A stretch of 64,000 nt of DNA from Tessaracoccus sp. MC1865 (GTDB lineage: Bacteria > Actinomycetota > Actinomycetes > Propionibacteriales > Propionibacteriaceae), in NCBI RefSeq assembly GCF_017815535.1, contig NZ_CP072596.1, positions 2,883,614 through 2,947,613 of the forward strand, written 5' to 3'. The notes under the pieces were generated by a model. The model saw only the letters and a program-made list of their open reading frames with translations. It searched no databases and was not told the origin of the DNA. The translations under genes were made by a program, and so were the position numbers. Below are positions 6,645-58,944 of this stretch, in pieces. Position 1 is the stretch's first letter; each line of letters starts with the position of its first letter.

Positions 6645-7483
6645 TCAGGAACCGGCCGAGTACAACTTCGGGCCGTCGCTGTCGCCCGAGGTCGGCTCAG
6701 AGCCGGTACGGAACATCACGATGTTGTTGAAGACCCACTGGTTCGACTGGCTGAAGGCGTAGCCCCCGCCCGGCTTGGCGGTGGCCGCGTACACCGTCGT
6801 CCACGTGTAGCTGCGGCACGCGCCGCGGCCTGTGGCGGCGGTGTCGCACTCGGTGCGCCACTGGCGCCCACCCGAGGTGGACACCCCGTCGTCGGTCGCG
6901 CCCGCGTCGCCGAGCGGGTTGCCCTTCCACGCCGCCCGCGTCATGTAGGGCAGGTACGTCAGGTTGTTGAACGCCCAGGCGTTCTCGCGGACGTACTCGC
7001 CACCCCGGACCCGGACGATCGTGGCCCAGATCTCCGTGCGGCACCGCTCGGTCTGCGAGTAGGGCTCGCAGGTGGTCATCCACTGGCGGCCGTTGAGCTC
7101 GAAGACGCCGGGCGCCGTGTATGGCGGCTTCGGCTCGAAGCGCCCCGGAGTGCTCGGCGTGGCCCGTCGACGATCCGCTCGATGGCGTTGGTCTGGCACT
7201 GGCCCAGTCTGGCGGACCGCGCGGGCGTGCCCGGCAACGTCTCCGACGCGTAGGGCTCCACGCCCAGCCACGTCAGGTAGCGGCCATAGGCCTCCTGGAG
7301 GAAGGTGTCGAAGCGGGTGTCGCCCACCTTCGGGATGTACCTGTCAGCCACCGGGGTCAGACTGTTGAGCCCGTCCACGCGGTAGGTGGTGGTGGCCTTC
7401 TTGCGCTCGGCCGCCGAGGCGAGGAACGACGCAGCCGCACCCGATCCGTCGTCGGCCGCCAGCTCTTCGAGCCCAACGGGCAC
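6645..7483 (-). pseudogene. Truncated and frameshifted secreted-protein gene ending in the WRTEC/FNN module
   Basis: Two minus-strand frames join to one product. The upstream part (about 7483-7170) reads LEELAADDGSGAAASF through YGRYLTWLGVEPYASETL to TNAIERIVDG and matches nothing I recognise. The downstream part (about 7170-6645) starts in another frame at TPSTPGRFEPKPPYTAPG and carries a complete copy of the C-terminal module described at 6711-7100. The switch needs a one-base indel near 7165. There is no credible start codon, signal peptide or ribosome site: the recognisable frame begins right at the citrate synthase terminator (a GTG at 7483 lies in its T-tract). The gene has therefore lost its 5' end, perhaps by deletion, and its reading frame. 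Confidence 0.7.
6711..7100 (-). other. WRTEC/FNN tandem module, copy 1 (in a broken gene)
   Basis: Module of about 130 residues with two related halves. First half: NGRQWMTTCEPYSQTERC, then WAFNNLTYLPYMTR. Second half: GRQWRTECDTAATGRGAC, then NQWVFNNIVMF. The amino-acid pattern is nearly the same as in copies 2-4 of this window, although the gene is disrupted upstream. Confidence 0.8.
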
Positions 7484-7515
7484 AAAACAAGGGCCCTGGT
7501 AGACCAGGGCCCTTG
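7481..7515 (-). terminator. Terminator of citrate synthase gene
   Basis: CAAGGGCCCTGG (7488-7499) pairs perfectly with CCAGGGCCCTTG (7504-7515) around a 4-base loop, and on the minus strand it is followed by TTTTGTG. It lies 20 bp past the gltA stop: a textbook factor-independent terminator. Confidence 0.88.
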
Positions 7516-39927: not shown

Positions 39928-42900
39928 TCAGACGCGTTCCTTGAACAGCACGATGTTGTTGAACACCCACTCGTTGCTCTGGGTGAACGTGTACCCACCG
40001 GTGGGCTTCGCATGCGCCTGGTACACCGTCACCTTCGCGTAGGAGCGGCAGCCGCCCCGGCCGGTGGCAGGCGTGTCGCACTCGGTGCGCCACATGCGGC
40101 CGTCGGTCGCGGTCCATGCCCCCGTGAACCCCAGCGGGTTCTTCGCCCAGTCGGCGCGGGTCATGTACGGCAGGTAGGTGAGGTTGTTGAACGCCCAGCC
40201 CGTGGTGCGCACGAACTTCCCGTCGTCCACCTTGATGGTCGTGGCCCAGATGTAGGTCCAGCAACGCTCGGTCTGCGAGTACGCCTCACACGTGGTCTGC
40301 CACTTGCGGCCGTTGAGGTCGTGGTAACCCGGCAGCGTGTAAGGAGGCGTGCGCACGAAGTCCGGCTTACCGGGCGACGCGGGCGGCGTGACCGGCGGCT
40401 TCGTCGGCTCCACCTCGCGCAGCACCACGGGGTAGGCCCAGGCGTTGACCGCGCTGGTGGCGCTCTCCTGGAACGAGATCAGGATGGTGCCGTCCTCGCC
40501 CATCAGCGTCTCCAGGTCTGCTGCGTCCAACGCCAACCGGACGGTGGAGGCACCTGTGCTGATGGCCTTCTCGACGGAGCCGAGCAGACGCCCACCCATG
40601 TCATCGCCCCACGGCGCGGCCGCGGTGTCGGAGGCGAGGTCACAGGTGGAGAAGCCCCACTCGTCGCCCTCACAGCTGGACACCCAGACCGGGATGGCGG
40701 CGGGGTTGCCGTTCCAGGCGAAGGCACGCAGCGTGCCGGCCTTGGCGCTGGCGACGGAAATGGTGGCCCCGTCGTCGTCGAACGACACGTCCTGGACGGT
40801 GAGCGCACGGCTCGCGTCCAGACCCGCGATGGTCACGCCCCGGGCGGCGGACTGGTAGATGGTCTGAGGCGACTCGACGCCGAGCAACGCCTGATCGGGG
40901 ATCTGCGGCGTGTCCGGAGTGGTCGAACGACCCTCAGGCGCCGTGTAGCCGTCGAGGTAGGCGTGGCCCCAGCGGTACGGCTCGGACTGCTGGCTCCCGA
41001 ACGGCGACCACGCGGTGCGCGTCTTGCCGATGAAGGTAGCCACGTCGGAGTCGTACGGCGTCACGTTGAGACCCAGGTAATCCGGGTCCACCACGTTGGT
41101 CGCCTGGGAACCCGTGGGGGCGGTGCTGGTCACCACTGCCGCAGGCAGGTTCTCCAGCGGGATCTTCACCTCGACGGTGAAACCGCCGTCGACGTAGGTG
41201 CCGTCCTCGTTGAGGTCGAAGTCGACAGCCACTTCCTGGCCGGGCGAGTTGGGCCCGCCCTCAACGGTGGCGGCCAGCGGACCGGACGAGAAGCCCTGGT
41301 GGTTGTCGGCGTCGCGGCTCCAGCACGGCCCGTTGGGGCCCTGACCCGCGGCACCCGAGGCGTCGTCCGTGAACGGCATGATGCCGGTCTTGAACGTCGT
41401 CGACGTGTCGCGCGACCCGCCGAGGGGATCGAGGAGCACCTCCACCGAATCCACCAGCCAGTGGCCGAAGCAACGCTCAGGCGTGGCGGCGGCGCTGGCG
41501 ATGTTGTCCACCACGAACGCCTGGGCGTAGAGGGCGTCGCCGTGCCAGGCGAGCCTCACGGTGCTGCCCGCGCCGCAGTCGGTGCCGTCGGGATCACACG
41601 CCGCCCCCTCCCAGCGGCGGCCGATGTCGAGGGCGGGGCCGTAGAAGTCATCGGCGACACCGTCAACCACGGGCGCCACCTCAGCCTCGGGGATCACCGT
41701 GGTGGGCACCACGTACAGCCGCAGCGTCTCGGTGCTCGTCGAGCCGAGCGCGGTGGCCGTCGTCACGATCGGCACCTCCGCGATCCGCCCGCCCGGATCT
41801 GCCGGGTCAGTATGGGTGACGACGAAGTCGACCGTCGTCTGGGCGCCGGCGGCCAGCGCCGTGTACGGCTTGGTCACCTCGTCGACGGTGAAGCCGGCCG
41901 GAACGGTGACCGAGACGTTGCCGCTCTGGGGCACGGTGGTGCGGTTGCTGACGATCACGGGGATCGTCACCGACTCGCCGGCACCGATCTGGCGCTCAGC
42001 CGCGGAGCGACCCGACACGCGCGTGAACTCGTCGGCCCACGCCTCGTAGGAGGCGAAGTTGCCCCAGCGCTCGAACTGCCCCTCGACCCCGGCGACCAGC
42101 TGGACGCGGGAATCGTTGTAGGCGGTCACGGAGCCGTTGTCGAAGAGGGCCTCGATCTTGTAGCGGGCGAGCGCGGCATCCGCGGACGGGGTGACGGTGA
42201 GGGTCACGCTGGCTTCGGCGTTACTGGTGATGGGGCCGAGCTCGGGGTCGCCGGTGACGGTCCAGCCTTCGGGCAGCCCGAGGGTGACGTCGCCGGCGGC
42301 GATCGTGCCTTCACCCGACCTCGCCGTAACGGTCACGTCGAACGGCACGCCGGGGGCCTGGAAGTAGTCGCCGACGTCGATCGTGTAGGTCGAACCCAAC
42401 GGCATGCCGCCGGGATCAGCGACGAGGGTGCCGAAGAGAATGGCGTCGTCGCGCGCGTTCGCGGCGGTGCCGTTGGGCTGGAACGGCACCAGCGACTGCG
42501 CGATGCCGTAGCGCTGACAGAACGGCTCGAACACACCGGTGTGCTTGGTGCGCGCCTGGGTGGGGTGCGCCCGGTTGCCCTCGCGGCCAACCTGCGCCCA
42601 CGTCATCGGGGTGCCCGGCTCCATGCCCTGCACGTTGCCCTCGAGCCACGTGTACGGCGACTCGAACCCGGTCCACGTCCCCACGACGGTGAATTGGTTG
42701 TTGTCGGCCGGCACGAAGCCCGCGTTGCATTCAGCGGCGAGCTGTCCGCCCGTGCCGTTGGTGGCTGCGCCGGAGGTGACCACCTTCACCTGCCACGGCT
42801 CCACCGCGTCGGGGCCGGTGAGCTGCTCGGGGAAGGCGTTGGGATCCGCGGCCATTTGCACCGCCTCCCAGTTCACCCGGCCCGAGTACTGGTGGTGGCC

Positions 42901-43410
42901 GTGCCCTGCGGGGCTGGGGGCCCATCCCATCAGGATCTCCGGCTGGGTCTGGCGGATGACGTGCACCACCTGGCGCTGGATACGCTCGGAGCCCCAGACG
43001 TCCTCGGTGAGGGCGGCGCTGGTGTTGTACCAGAAGTCCACTGCGTCGATGTTGTAGATGTCGTACACGCCCGAGCGGTAGAAGGAGGTGCGGTCCTCGT
43101 TCTCGCGGCGCAGGCCGAGATCCGGGCCGGCCTCGTCGCCGACCGAGTTCGAGCCGCCCTCGCCACGCGTGAGCATGACGACGCCGCACTTGACGTCGTA
43201 GCGGTCAGTCCAGACGCCACAGGGGGTGGTGAAACCGGCGTCATCATCGGGATGGGCCCAGATGCCGAGCACATCGATCTTGTTGGGATTGACCTCGGTG
43301 GTCACGGACGGCTCGCCCACGGCGAGCTCAACGTCCTGCGCCCACGCTGGGACTTGTAGACCGAAACCGACGGCCAATGCGCCGACCAGGGCTAGCAACT
43401 TGCGTCTCAT
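39928..43410 (-). CDS. Large secreted PIG-L-family deacetylase with NEW3, sugar-binding-type and WRTEC/FNN domains
   Basis: An 1160-residue exported protein. Signal peptide to about residue 25 (LLALVGALAVGFGLQ). Residues about 45-330 are a PIG-L/LmbE-type N-acetylglucosamine deacetylase with the zinc motif His53-Pro-Asp-Asp56 (AHPDDDAG), VVMLTRGEGGSN and a second His block (GHGHHQYSG). Then two stretches with the NEW3/beta-sandwich pattern (GLPEGWTVTGDPELG, VPAGFTVDEVTKPY), a carbohydrate-binding family 9-like domain (VDGVADDFYGPALDIG, VDSVEVLLDPLGG, TVEVKIPLENLP) and, at the end, module copy 2. It likely removes acetyl groups from a surface or environmental glycan. ATG 43410 has a GGAGG site. 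Confidence 0.88.
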   Translation of the reverse strand: MRRKLLALVGALAVGFGLQVPAWAQDVELAVGEPSVTTEVNPNKIDVLGIWAHPDDDAGFTTPCGVWTDRYDVKCGVVMLTRGEGGSNSVGDEAGPDLGLRRENEDRTSFYRSGVYDIYNIDAVDFWYNTSAALTEDVWGSERIQRQVVHVIRQTQPEILMGWAPSPAGHGHHQYSGRVNWEAVQMAADPNAFPEQLTGPDAVEPWQVKVVTSGAATNGTGGQLAAECNAGFVPADNNQFTVVGTWTGFESPYTWLEGNVQGMEPGTPMTWAQVGREGNRAHPTQARTKHTGVFEPFCQRYGIAQSLVPFQPNGTAANARDDAILFGTLVADPGGMPLGSTYTIDVGDYFQAPGVPFDVTVTARSGEGTIAAGDVTLGLPEGWTVTGDPELGPITSNAEASVTLTVTPSADAALARYKIEALFDNGSVTAYNDSRVQLVAGVEGQFERWGNFASYEAWADEFTRVSGRSAAERQIGAGESVTIPVIVSNRTTVPQSGNVSVTVPAGFTVDEVTKPYTALAAGAQTTVDFVVTHTDPADPGGRIAEVPIVTTATALGSTSTETLRLYVVPTTVIPEAEVAPVVDGVADDFYGPALDIGRRWEGAACDPDGTDCGAGSTVRLAWHGDALYAQAFVVDNIASAAATPERCFGHWLVDSVEVLLDPLGGSRDTSTTFKTGIMPFTDDASGAAGQGPNGPCWSRDADNHQGFSSGPLAATVEGGPNSPGQEVAVDFDLNEDGTYVDGGFTVEVKIPLENLPAAVVTSTAPTGSQATNVVDPDYLGLNVTPYDSDVATFIGKTRTAWSPFGSQQSEPYRWGHAYLDGYTAPEGRSTTPDTPQIPDQALLGVESPQTIYQSAARGVTIAGLDASRALTVQDVSFDDDGATISVASAKAGTLRAFAWNGNPAAIPVWVSSCEGDEWGFSTCDLASDTAAAPWGDDMGGRLLGSVEKAISTGASTVRLALDAADLETLMGEDGTILISFQESATSAVNAWAYPVVLREVEPTKPPVTPPASPGKPDFVRTPPYTLPGYHDLNGRKWQTTCEAYSQTERCWTYIWATTIKVDDGKFVRTTGWAFNNLTYLPYMTRADWAKNPLGFTGAWTATDGRMWRTECDTPATGRGGCRSYAKVTVYQAHAKPTGGYTFTQSNEWVFNNIVLFKERV
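39940..40320 (-). other. WRTEC/FNN tandem module, copy 2 (PIG-L deacetylase tail)
   Basis: First half: NGRKWQTTCEAYSQTERC, then WAFNNLTYLPYMTR. Second half: GRMWRTECDTPATGRGGC, then NEWVFNNIVLF. It is the last 130 or so residues of the protein, after a Pro-rich linker (KPPVTPPASPGKP). Confidence 0.85.
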
Positions 43411-55811: not shown

Positions 55812-57671
55812 TCACGCGGGCGTGAACGACACCATCGAGTTGAACGTCCACTGATTGCGCCAGGCGTAGCTGCCCGTCCCGTCGGCGCCCACCGAGTAGG
55901 CGATCACCGAGGCCACCAGGTAGCTGCGGCAGCCGCCCCAGCCCGTGGCGGCCGTGTCGCATTCGGTGCGCCACCGCCGGCCGTTGCTCGTCCATTCGCC
56001 AGTTGTGGCCAGCGGGTTGCCGGCCCAGACCGAACGCGGCGTGGGCTTGTAGGTGAGGTTGTTGAACAGCCAGCCGGTGCTCTGCACGAACCGGCCGCCA
56101 GCCTGGCTGACCACCGTGCCCCAGATCTCCGTGCGGCAGCGCTCGGTCACCGAGTACGGCTCGCACGAGGTGCGCCAGCGCCGCCCGTTGACCAGGTGCT
56201 CGCCCGGCGTCACGTAGAGAAGCTCTGGGTTCTTCACGAAATCCGGAGGGGGCTCGACGCTCGGATGGCGCAGCCCCAGCGGACCCTTCGCCGCTTCCGT
56301 CACCAGGTTGCGCACGAGCCCGCGCGCGAACGCCTGCGACCTGGCCGGCGCGGATTCCATCCAAGGCGACACCGCCCACGCGAACGCGAACGACCCCAGG
56401 TTCACCACCCCCGCCCCGGACGGTGCCGAGTAGTACGTGATGTCCGAGAAGGCGTTGGCGTCGTTGGTGCACCGCAACGGGCTGTGCGCCACCACGACAG
56501 TGGAGTCAGGCGACTGCTTCGCCAACCGGTCGATCTCATGACCGACGAGCCCCGGGTACTGGGCGCCGGCGGTCACGCCGAGGCCCGCGAACCCCCAGAA
56601 CGTCGGATCCGTGACCACCAGGGGCGCCGTTTCCCGGGAACGAGACGCGCACGTGTACTGCGAACCCAGCAGCACGGCCTCGGGATCCGCCCCCGGGCTC
56701 CGTCGCCAGAGGTCCGTGGTGGTCGGGCCCTGCACCGGGTCTAGGCTGGCGTCCTTGTAGCTGGTCACGATGGCGCCATCGGCGTTCCACCGGATGCGCC
56801 AGTAGGCAGTGTTGGCACCGAGGAAGAGCAGGTTGGTGCCGGAGTCGCGCAACGTCTCGGCCGCGCGTCGCATCTCCCAGCTCCAGTACTCGTCGTGGCC
56901 GAGGAACACCATGGCCGGCGAGCCGGCGTACTGCGCCGCCCCTTGATGCAGCGCGAAGTTCGTGGTGTAGGAGAGAGGCACGCCCAGCGACTCGAGTTGC
57001 TGGATCAACCCCACCTCGTACTCCTGCACCTTGAGGGTGCGGTTCCCCTCGAACGCCTGGGGGCGCATGAACGAGACGCGGTGCGCGCGGTACTCGAAGG
57101 CGGAGCGCCCATCCTGGTAGCCCTGGTAGAGGCTGAAGTTGCCCATCGGGTTGTACGCCTGGTGGGTGGCCGTCGCCGACATCACCGTCACCGTGCCGCG
57201 GTGCGAGCGCGAGCGCAGGATGACCGGCACCGTCTTGGACCTGCCCGACGCGTGGCGCAGGTTCACGTAGTACATGCCCGGCAGCCAGCCGGTGGTGTCG
57301 AGGGTGTGCGTGACCTCCCACCCGGAGCAGTCCACCATGTTGCCCTCTTCGAGCGTGCAGGGCTGCTGCGCGACGCCGGGTTGGGCGGGCAGTTGCGCCA
57401 CCCTGAGCCCGCCGCGGCCGCCGTAGTCGCCGATGCGGTACACGTCAACGGCCACGCCCTGGGAGGGGCTGTGCACCCGCAGTTCCATGGGCTGGCCGGG
57501 GAGGAGGCTCTCGGCGCCGACGAATCCCTTGAGCTCCGTGTCGGTCGCCTGCTGGGCGAGGGGGACCCGCCAGTTGTGGAGGCCTTCGTCGGCCGTCGCC
57601 ACGGACGGCGTGAAGACGCTCCACACCAGGGCGATGGCGAGGAGCAGTGCTGAAGAACGCCGGAGAGCCAC
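55812..57671 (-). CDS. Secreted N,N-dimethylformamidase large-subunit-like protein with WRTEC/FNN tail
   Basis: A 619-residue exported protein. Signal peptide at 1-27 (LLLAIALVWSVFTPSVATA). A beta-sandwich part follows (QPMELRVHSPSQGVAVDVYR, TTGWLPGMYYVNLRHASG), then the N,N-dimethylformamidase beta-subunit-like catalytic region (TATHQAYNPMGNFSLYQG, VFLGHDEYWSWEMRRAAETL, LLFLGANTAYWRIRWN) and module copy 4 kb away from the next copy at the end. Related enzymes are cytoplasmic; this one is outside the membrane. Substrate unknown. GTG 57671 is the start with TATCGT 6 nt upstream. Confidence 0.82.
   Translation of the reverse strand: MALRRSSALLLAIALVWSVFTPSVATADEGLHNWRVPLAQQATDTELKGFVGAESLLPGQPMELRVHSPSQGVAVDVYRIGDYGGRGGLRVAQLPAQPGVAQQPCTLEEGNMVDCSGWEVTHTLDTTGWLPGMYYVNLRHASGRSKTVPVILRSRSHRGTVTVMSATATHQAYNPMGNFSLYQGYQDGRSAFEYRAHRVSFMRPQAFEGNRTLKVQEYEVGLIQQLESLGVPLSYTTNFALHQGAAQYAGSPAMVFLGHDEYWSWEMRRAAETLRDSGTNLLFLGANTAYWRIRWNADGAIVTSYKDASLDPVQGPTTTDLWRRSPGADPEAVLLGSQYTCASRSRETAPLVVTDPTFWGFAGLGVTAGAQYPGLVGHEIDRLAKQSPDSTVVVAHSPLRCTNDANAFSDITYYSAPSGAGVVNLGSFAFAWAVSPWMESAPARSQAFARGLVRNLVTEAAKGPLGLRHPSVEPPPDFVKNPELLYVTPGEHLVNGRRWRTSCEPYSVTERCRTEIWGTVVSQAGGRFVQSTGWLFNNLTYKPTPRSVWAGNPLATTGEWTSNGRRWRTECDTAATGWGGCRSYLVASVIAYSVGADGTGSYAWRNQWTFNSMVSFTPA
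55815..56197 (-). other. WRTEC/FNN tandem module, copy 3 (dimethylformamidase-like tail)
   Basis: First half: NGRRWRTSCEPYSVTERC, then WLFNNLTYKPTPR. Second half: GRRWRTECDTAATGWGGC, then NQWTFNSMVSF. One Arg of the usual TGRG is Trp here. Confidence 0.85.
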
Positions 57672-57677
57672 GTCCCC

Positions 57678-57683
57678 ACGATA
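57678..57683 (-). promoter_or_regulatory. Leaderless -10 box of the dimethylformamidase-like gene
   Basis: TATCGT on the minus strand, 6 nt before the GTG at 57671. Confidence 0.4.
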
Positions 57684-57687
57684 GGAG

Positions 57688-57722
57688 AATCCCTGCCCGC
57701 CGGTGCGGGCGGGGCAGGGATT
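57688..57722. terminator. Long hairpin after the M23 peptidase gene
   Basis: AATCCCTGCCC (57688-57698) pairs with GGGCAGGGATT (57712-57722), with further pairing inside the 13-base loop. It lies 29 bp past the M23 gene's stop on the minus strand and just before the next gene's promoter. Confidence 0.6.
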
Positions 57723-57750
57723 CGGGAAGCGTGCCGCGAGCGGCCGGGGG

Positions 57751-58827
57751 TCAGTCGCTGAAGCGCACCAGGTTGTTGAAGACCTCGGCGCCGCCGGCGG
57801 ACGACTTCACGTAGGTGCGGCAGGCGCCGCGACCCGTCGCGGCGGTGTCGCACTCGGTGCGCCACTGGCGACCCTGCGCGTCGCTCCAACTGGCGGTCGT
57901 GCCCAGGTCGTTGCCTACCCAGAGTTCGCGCTTGGCGGGCTTGTAGGTGAGGTTGTTGAACACCCAGCCCTCGGTGTGCAGCTCATAGCCCGCCACGTTC
58001 TCGACCATGGAGGCCCAGATCTCGGTGCGGCACCGCTCCGTCTGCGAGTACGGCTCGCAGGTGGTGCGCCAGGCGCGGCCGCCGACGGTGTGCTGACCGT
58101 CGGTCACGTAGAGCGCGACGGCGTCGATGGTGTCGGCCGCGGCGATCGCCGGCCGCTGGACGTCACGCGAGGCGGCGACCTGCGACGCGCGGTGCAGCGC
58201 GGAGGCGGGCAGCAGCGTGTTGCTCAGTGCGGGCACGGCGTAGCAGGAGCGACGTGCGTCGGCGACGACGGCGCCGTCGGAGTTGCGCGTCCAGTAGCCG
58301 CAGTAGGCGCCGCCGCTGCCGTGGACGGCGTAGCCACCCAGCTGCAGGCCCTCGATGGGCATCTCCGTGCCGGCCTTCATCAGCGTGAAGTGCACGTGGC
58401 GGAAGGTGCCACGGCCACAGGTCTCGGAGCCCGGCATGCCGGTCATCCCCAGTTTGGTACCGGCCGCCACCTGCTGGCCGGCGGCGAGGCCGGCCGGGAT
58501 GGCGCGAAGGTGGAAGTACTTCGTCTGCCAGCCGTCCTCGTGGGTGATGATGACCTCGCAGTTGGCCTTGACCGTGGTGATCACGCCATCGGCGGCGGCG
58601 ACCACGTCGACCGACGCGTTGCCGGCGGCGCCGAGATCCACGGAACTACGCACTCCGGAGGCGAACGTGTGGGTGCCGCCACCCTGGACTGTGAGGCCCC
58701 AACCCACGGGCAGCAGCATGGGGAAATCCGGAAGGGTGGCTGCGGCCTCGGCCCTCGGAGCGGTGGCGACGCTGAACACGCCAGCCAGGAGCGCCACTAC
58801 CAGGGCTCCGACAAAAGACTTTCGCAC
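57751..58827 (-). CDS. M23-family metallopeptidase with WRTEC/FNN tail
   Basis: A 358-residue exported peptidase expected to cut peptidoglycan cross-links. Signal peptide at about 1-28 (FVGALVVALLAGVFSVATA). The M23 (beta-lytic/LytM) domain has the first zinc His in GTHTFASGVRSSVDLGAA (with Asp of SSVDL), then VVAAADGVITTVKANCEVII, KYFHLRAIPAGLAAGQQV and the final HVHFTL. Module copy 4 is the last 115 residues. GTG 58827 has AAGGA upstream. The region before it has four CTCAGG/CCTGAG motifs. Confidence 0.88.
   Translation of the reverse strand: MRKSFVGALVVALLAGVFSVATAPRAEAAATLPDFPMLLPVGWGLTVQGGGTHTFASGVRSSVDLGAAGNASVDVVAAADGVITTVKANCEVIITHEDGWQTKYFHLRAIPAGLAAGQQVAAGTKLGMTGMPGSETCGRGTFRHVHFTLMKAGTEMPIEGLQLGGYAVHGSGGAYCGYWTRNSDGAVVADARRSCYAVPALSNTLLPASALHRASQVAASRDVQRPAIAAADTIDAVALYVTDGQHTVGGRAWRTTCEPYSQTERCRTEIWASMVENVAGYELHTEGWVFNNLTYKPAKRELWVGNDLGTTASWSDAQGRQWRTECDTAATGRGACRTYVKSSAGGAEVFNNLVRFSD
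57754..58092 (-). other. WRTEC/FNN tandem module, copy 4 (M23 peptidase tail)
   Basis: First half: GGRAWRTTCEPYSQTERC, then WVFNNLTYKPAKR. Second half: GRQWRTECDTAATGRGAC, then a shorter EVFNNLVRF. This copy is the shortest, lacking about 12 residues before the last motif. Confidence 0.85.
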
Positions 58828-58944
58828 GCAGATATCCTTCAGCAAATTCTCAGGGTTTCTCAGGATGAGGAGACCACCCACGGGGTGATCCCTGAAAACT
58901 GTACGAGTTTCCTGAGAGTTTCCCAAATCCTTCCTGAGGATTGC
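58828..58944 (-). promoter_or_regulatory. Upstream region of the M23 peptidase gene with repeated CTCAGG/CCTGAG motifs
   Basis: On the plus strand the motif occurs as AATTCTCAGG (58845-58854), TTTCTCAGGA (about 58857), TTCCTGAG (about 58911) and TTCCTGAG (about 58932), the first pair facing the second. The arrangement suggests a cooperative binding site around the promoter. One motif copy is shared with the HExxH gene at 32.1 kb. Confidence 0.4.

Follow-up and report, generated by a model that had tools for sequence, protein, structure and literature searches.

Within the 64,000-nucleotide stretch of Tessaracoccus sp. MC1865 DNA analyzed here (the window), the same module of ~135 residues recurs at four places, attached to proteins that otherwise differ. 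This raises the questions of whether the module belongs to a known domain family and what it does for the proteins that carry it.

Sequence and predicted structure of the module

A sequence-only reading of the window had placed the same tail at four sites. All four were found there, on the minus strand (Table 1), and they are clearly homologous: identity to the first copy is 52 to 55%, 49 columns are invariant over ~140 residues, and a single window copy used as the query recovers the other three with E values of 7e-34 to 4e-61, far beyond chance. The fronts of these proteins differ, as that reading had also proposed. Pfam assigns a PIG-L deacetylase with NEW3 and CBM9 domains to one, DMFA2_C (the N,N-dimethylformamidase beta-like C-terminal domain, a profile match) to the second and an M23 domain to the third; the fourth is represented by a remnant head in another frame.

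Table 1. Module copies, carrier proteins and the shared stretch (positions refer to the window unless a locus is named)
Feature	Position	Strand	Description
Module copy 1	55818-56243	(-)	C-terminal on the DMFA2_C protein; 2 residues from the stop
Exported 619-aa protein	55812-57671	(-)	Signal peptide, DMFA2_C (PF20254, E = 8e-88), module
Module copy 2	57754-58134	(-)	C-terminal; ~15 residues of half B missing
Exported 364-aa protein	57751-58845	(-)	Signal peptide, M23 (PF01551, E = 6.5e-13), module
Module copy 3	39931-40362	(-)	C-terminal; source sequence of the AlphaFold model
Exported 1160-aa protein	39928-43410	(-)	Signal peptide, PIG-L deacetylase, NEW3, CBM9-like domain, module
Module copy 4	6705-7139	(-)	In a decayed gene whose front lies in another frame; signal peptide absent
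Head remnant of copy 4	7162-7473	(-)	Matches residues 651-750 of an intact 1182-aa carrier (L115)
Shared stretch	L148:2400-12910; L168:4598-15109; L113:1184-8399 (7.2 kb)		99.9% identity

The two halves of the module had been suspected of arising by duplication, and profile-profile comparison of half A with half B bears this out (probability 99.2%, E = 2e-19, 53 columns). The two cysteine pairs noted earlier, 9 to 10 residues apart, are likewise a family trait: C25/C34 and C95/C105 (spacings of 9 and 10) are invariant across 138 non-redundant copies with one exception, at C25, so that 137 of the 138 copies have all four, and there is no fifth cysteine. Two disulfides are likely to form, because the cysteines are conserved and the carriers have an export signal.

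Searches of the module against the Pfam, NCBIfam, PHROGs and PDB sequence libraries gave nothing above chance, in agreement with the earlier view that no named domain has this pattern; a strong match to an existing domain was looked for in particular and not found. Thaumatin-like identity, indicated at an E value of 0.0085 by a 4-row profile, disappeared with the 138-row profile, and no thaumatin is among the Foldseek fold matches listed. The AlphaFold model of the module (mean pLDDT, 95.2; pTM, 0.85) has eight beta strands in two sets of four and ends in a beta strand. The modeled tail of a distantly related amidase has the same layout (pLDDT, 92.6). At an E value of ≤0.001, Foldseek returned no match to either model in the PDB, or to the first model in BFVD; the best alignments (TM score, ~0.2; root mean square deviation, ~15 Å) amount to no match, and neither library yielded a wall-binding analogue. 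The predicted fold is therefore new with respect to the PDB and BFVD libraries. We rate the module as a new domain family, predicted to do what several unrelated domains do elsewhere.

Two of the window copies are damaged. The copy at positions 6705 to 7139 is a remnant in a decayed gene: 20 residues follow the module, and the 104 residues encoded upstream of it in the other frame match a 1182-aa carrier from T. antarcticus (E = 1e-17). A terminator-like site adjoins this gene at positions 7488 to 7513, where a strong inverted repeat followed by TTGTTTT lies after the stop codon of a citrate synthase gene. In half B of the copy on the M23 protein (57754-57960, minus strand), one hairpin of ~15 residues has been lost in frame relative to the homologue in L147 (genome G022). 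In the M23 head of the same protein, the sequence GVRSSVDLGA apparently has Arg where the first metal-ligand His would be, and HVH is retained. The L147 homologue has the same His-to-Arg change, and the M23 domain may for this reason be noncatalytic.

Distribution, placement and carriers

The complete 3.04-Mb chromosome to which the window belongs has 42 module copies, 36 of them essentially complete; 22 are C-terminal, 14 directly follow a signal peptide, and six are truncated or decayed. Five fragments in this genome (L162, L163, L169, L170 and L172) lack a proper gene, which are signs of frequent carrier decay. Among 40 members of the genus, 16 carry between 1 and 65 copies each and 24 carry none. 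Close relatives, paired according to the 5'-nucleotidase and pullulanase trees, differ wholesale, with 48 copies in G011 versus none in G029 and 44 in G003 versus none in G031. One member has a single copy (L146, G019:C62), beside a purF-like gene; this copy could be the last to survive a loss or a recent acquisition. Named records with related modules belong to Tessaracoccus, Arachnia and further Propionibacteriaceae; no other genus among the 29 sampled in the family has the module. Phages often borrow wall-binding domains; no module was found in phage records, plasmids or IMG/VR.

A class-wide search of 395 genomes brought up more distant relatives: four genomes from one other family (f31) have homologues, with E values of 1e-12 to 6e-24, and a further family (f24) has a fragment. 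A broadened profile run against 396 genomes of the phylum added nothing new. In f31, three copies lie in three neighboring genes, each at or near the C terminus. Two of the carriers are of the Amidase_2 and SpoIID types; the third is exported, has no Pfam match and contains a SEHxEGRALDVM motif that is read as M15/VldE-like. LytR-CpsA-Psr proteins attach glycopolymers to peptidoglycan, and a gene of this family (PF03816) adjoins the f31 carriers in L288, with a similar-looking gene in the same place in L285.

In the window the module nearly always ends the protein, as first claimed, but this is false for the genome as a whole. Among 133 complete, distinct carriers the module is C-terminal in 88, directly behind the signal peptide in 42 and internal in three; none has two modules. 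The N-terminal carriers show the sequence AxDVYTTPGxHxVNGR at this place. N- and C-placed modules are clustered but intermixed, with 11 changes on an ill-resolved tree, which does not support two separate families. Among the CAP proteins of this genome the module is C-terminal in L154 and L179 and N-terminal in L168; its place relative to the head is therefore immaterial.

Signal peptides were detected in 121 of the 133 carriers (~91%) versus 85 of 404 control genes (21%), percentages that are approximate because the calling rule, based on hydropathy and charge, is simple and crude. That most carriers might lack a signal peptide was checked and is not the case. The description of the module as a tail used across this organism's exported proteins thus holds for export; it fails for "tail," given the N-terminal copies, and for "this organism," since some other members of the genus also have the module, as does, in distant form, another family.

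The heads of the carriers in this genome confirm on a larger scale that the module joins unrelated fronts of surface or wall type. Pfam identifies M23, M15, YkuD L,D-transpeptidase and resuscitation-factor-type transglycosylase domains, a polysaccharide deacetylase, a C5-epimerase, three CAP proteins, two subtilases, a 5'-nucleotidase, an amylopullulanase of >2,000 aa, three DMFA2_C proteins, one PIG-L/CBM9 protein and one LRR protein; many heads are without a Pfam domain. The repertoire is one of wall-remodeling and surface enzymes that share no substrate, and such heads are of kinds that other Gram-positive bacteria tether. The module shows two traits expected of a cell wall attachment domain: its carriers are exported, and it is repeated genome-wide on unrelated heads. 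Up to 65 proteins per genome carry it, so that much of the Tessaracoccus surface proteome could be annotated in one step by recognizing it.

Predicted role in envelope attachment

The module probably attaches to the envelope noncovalently, and its predicted ligand is a wall polymer or peptidoglycan. Of all the observations, the distant relatives in f31, which sit on peptidoglycan enzymes and in two loci beside a LytR-CpsA-Psr-like gene, point most strongly to the wall as the site where it acts. Points against this reading are that no partner gene was found among those tested, that phage records have no module and that the Foldseek searches gave no wall-binding analogue. Mature carriers would have one copy at one end or the other, opposite the enzyme or adhesin, and all carriers would depend on the same envelope ligand. 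On the best reading this ligand would be a wall component that varies between lineages. Species with the ligand in their walls would tag dozens of exported proteins, and those without it would have no module and would fit the same enzymes with other tails. The all-or-none pattern among species would then arise because every carrier depends on one ligand, and we infer that loss of the ligand would account for loss of all copies. Gene content comparisons within the close pairs (G011/G029 and G003/G031) should point to the genes for ligand biosynthesis, and the module may serve as a display tag.

Many known wall-attachment modules were worked out in Firmicutes, and several resemble the present one in use. 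WxL is a C-terminal domain with a repeated conserved motif that binds peptidoglycan noncovalently (PMC5817068). Like the module, the WxL domain (PF13731, ~120 to 190 residues, in Lactobacillales and Bacillales) is an end domain of exported proteins with a repeated motif; unlike WxL, the module also occurs N-terminally, has four conserved cysteines and is found in Actinomycetota, and none of the 138 modules matches PF13731 at an E value of ≤0.1. SLH (PF00395) and CWB2 (PF04122) bind wall polymers noncovalently (PMC5817068) and, like the module, are found terminally on many exported proteins that are otherwise unrelated, but they work as sets of repeats, whereas the module is a single unit built from two beta halves; neither profile matches the modules. 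The LPXTG/sortase signal (PF00746) is likewise a genome-wide tag on surface proteins. The module differs from it in being a folded domain, often N-terminal, with no cleavage motif or membrane segment. It differs also from the type IX (Por) C-terminal domain, which is strictly C-terminal.

No partner gene was found among the sortase, CDP-glycerol polymerase and pyruvyltransferase genes tested. Sortase genes are present in all 40 genomes (1 to 5 copies) regardless of the module; the one near some carriers, beside a phosphoribosyltransferase gene, looks like the ordinary copy of the genus. The teichoic acid/CDP-glycerol polymerase (PF04464) does not correlate with the module and is absent from this genome. 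Pyruvyltransferase of the CsaB type (PF04230), the partner of SLH domains, shows no correlation either and is missing from this genome as well as from module-bearing G011, G020 and others.

Single copies at either end of very different enzymes would also suit a module of cohesin/dockerin type, docking exported proteins on a shared surface protein such as a scaffold or an S-layer-like layer, and the all-or-none spread is as compatible with one protein partner as with a glycan. Such docking is nonetheless unlikely, as f31 has just three copies at one locus, on wall-remodeling and adjacent exported proteins, where a wall ligand fits better. The amylopullulanase, C5-epimerase and polysaccharide deacetylase among the heads could suggest instead a carbohydrate-binding or adhesin-like module that brings enzymes to external polysaccharides or host surfaces. 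The substrates of the heads (nucleotides, proteins, starch and peptidoglycan) are unrelated, however, orthologues exchange the module for a tail that is not a domain, and the distant relatives reside on peptidoglycan enzymes, all of which makes substrate binding rather improbable.

A C-terminal signal for sorting or secretion, recognized by its own enzyme or machine as in the LPXTG/sortase, PEP-CTERM/exosortase or type IX systems, would likewise produce dozens of copies genome-wide and an all-or-none spread; one report (PMC1569441) describes the phylogenetic pattern of such spread as the way in which sorting systems were found. A signal required at the C terminus is very unlikely here because so many carriers (42 of 133) have the module N-terminally, right after the signal peptide; moreover, it contains no hydrophobic segment or basic tail, and its distribution is not followed by that of sortase genes. 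A domain that aids stability or folding and has no targeting function, for which the compact fold and invariant cysteines might speak, is the least credible alternative and leaves unexplained the wholesale absence of the module from sister species in which the same enzymes are retained.

Alternative tails on orthologues and mobility

Tails of the amylopullulanase and the 5'-nucleotidase were compared across the genus. In most module-bearing genomes both enzymes have the module. In most module-free genomes they finish with a linker rich in Pro, Lys and Asp, followed by (R/K)PGLPxTGx right at the stop codon. A few module-free genomes have another linker or tail on either enzyme, and two module-bearing genomes (G015 and G022) keep the PGLPxTGx tail on the 5'-nucleotidase. 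The module state changed at least five times on the 5'-nucleotidase tree, on well-supported branches, and at least four times on the pullulanase tree. A single genome has as many as 21 instances of PGLPxTGx at the stop codon, against 0 to 1 for the reversed pattern. The mean number of PGLPxTGx tags is 2.5 in module-bearing versus 6.0 in module-free genomes, a trend that is not significant (P = 0.06).

The PGLPxTGx tail is an LPXTG-like motif without a membrane segment or basic tail and is found on many exported proteins of the genus (L217, L221, L226 to L228, L231, L235, L236, L241, L242, L244 and L245). No hydrophobic or membrane segment that readthrough or frameshifting could add was seen 3' of the stop in any frame. 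Since it lacks a membrane segment, the tail cannot itself be taken as a proven anchor, and the argument that one attachment device replaces another loses force accordingly. The DsA1 protein of Cutibacterium acnes has an LPXTG motif but neither a membrane span nor a charged tail (PMC5527093), and this kind of tail has therefore been seen before in Propionibacteriaceae. The resemblance of DsA1, a surface protein with a PT-rich linker, is to the alternative tail. It is conceivable, and we advance it tentatively, that the new fold constitutes a whole-proteome attachment system with one species-variable ligand, swapped wholesale for the PGLPxTGx tag, which would itself be an unexplained retention signal of Propionibacteriaceae. 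Alternation of the module with LPXTG tails that have no transmembrane segment makes the surface retention of such proteins testable.

The module also appears to travel between species. This genome and G030 share, at 99.9% identity, a stretch of ~10.5 kb that includes the L168 CAP gene, which has an N-terminal module; 7.2 kb of the stretch is also found in T. bendigoensis. It contains a TrbL/VirB6-like gene, whose match (E = 7e-5) falls slightly short of the curated cutoff, and further encodes a sortase, the module-CAP protein and a 1310-aa adhesin with T-Q ester-bond domains. The stretch is thus probably a conjugative element, moved recently, that carries the module among module-bearing species.
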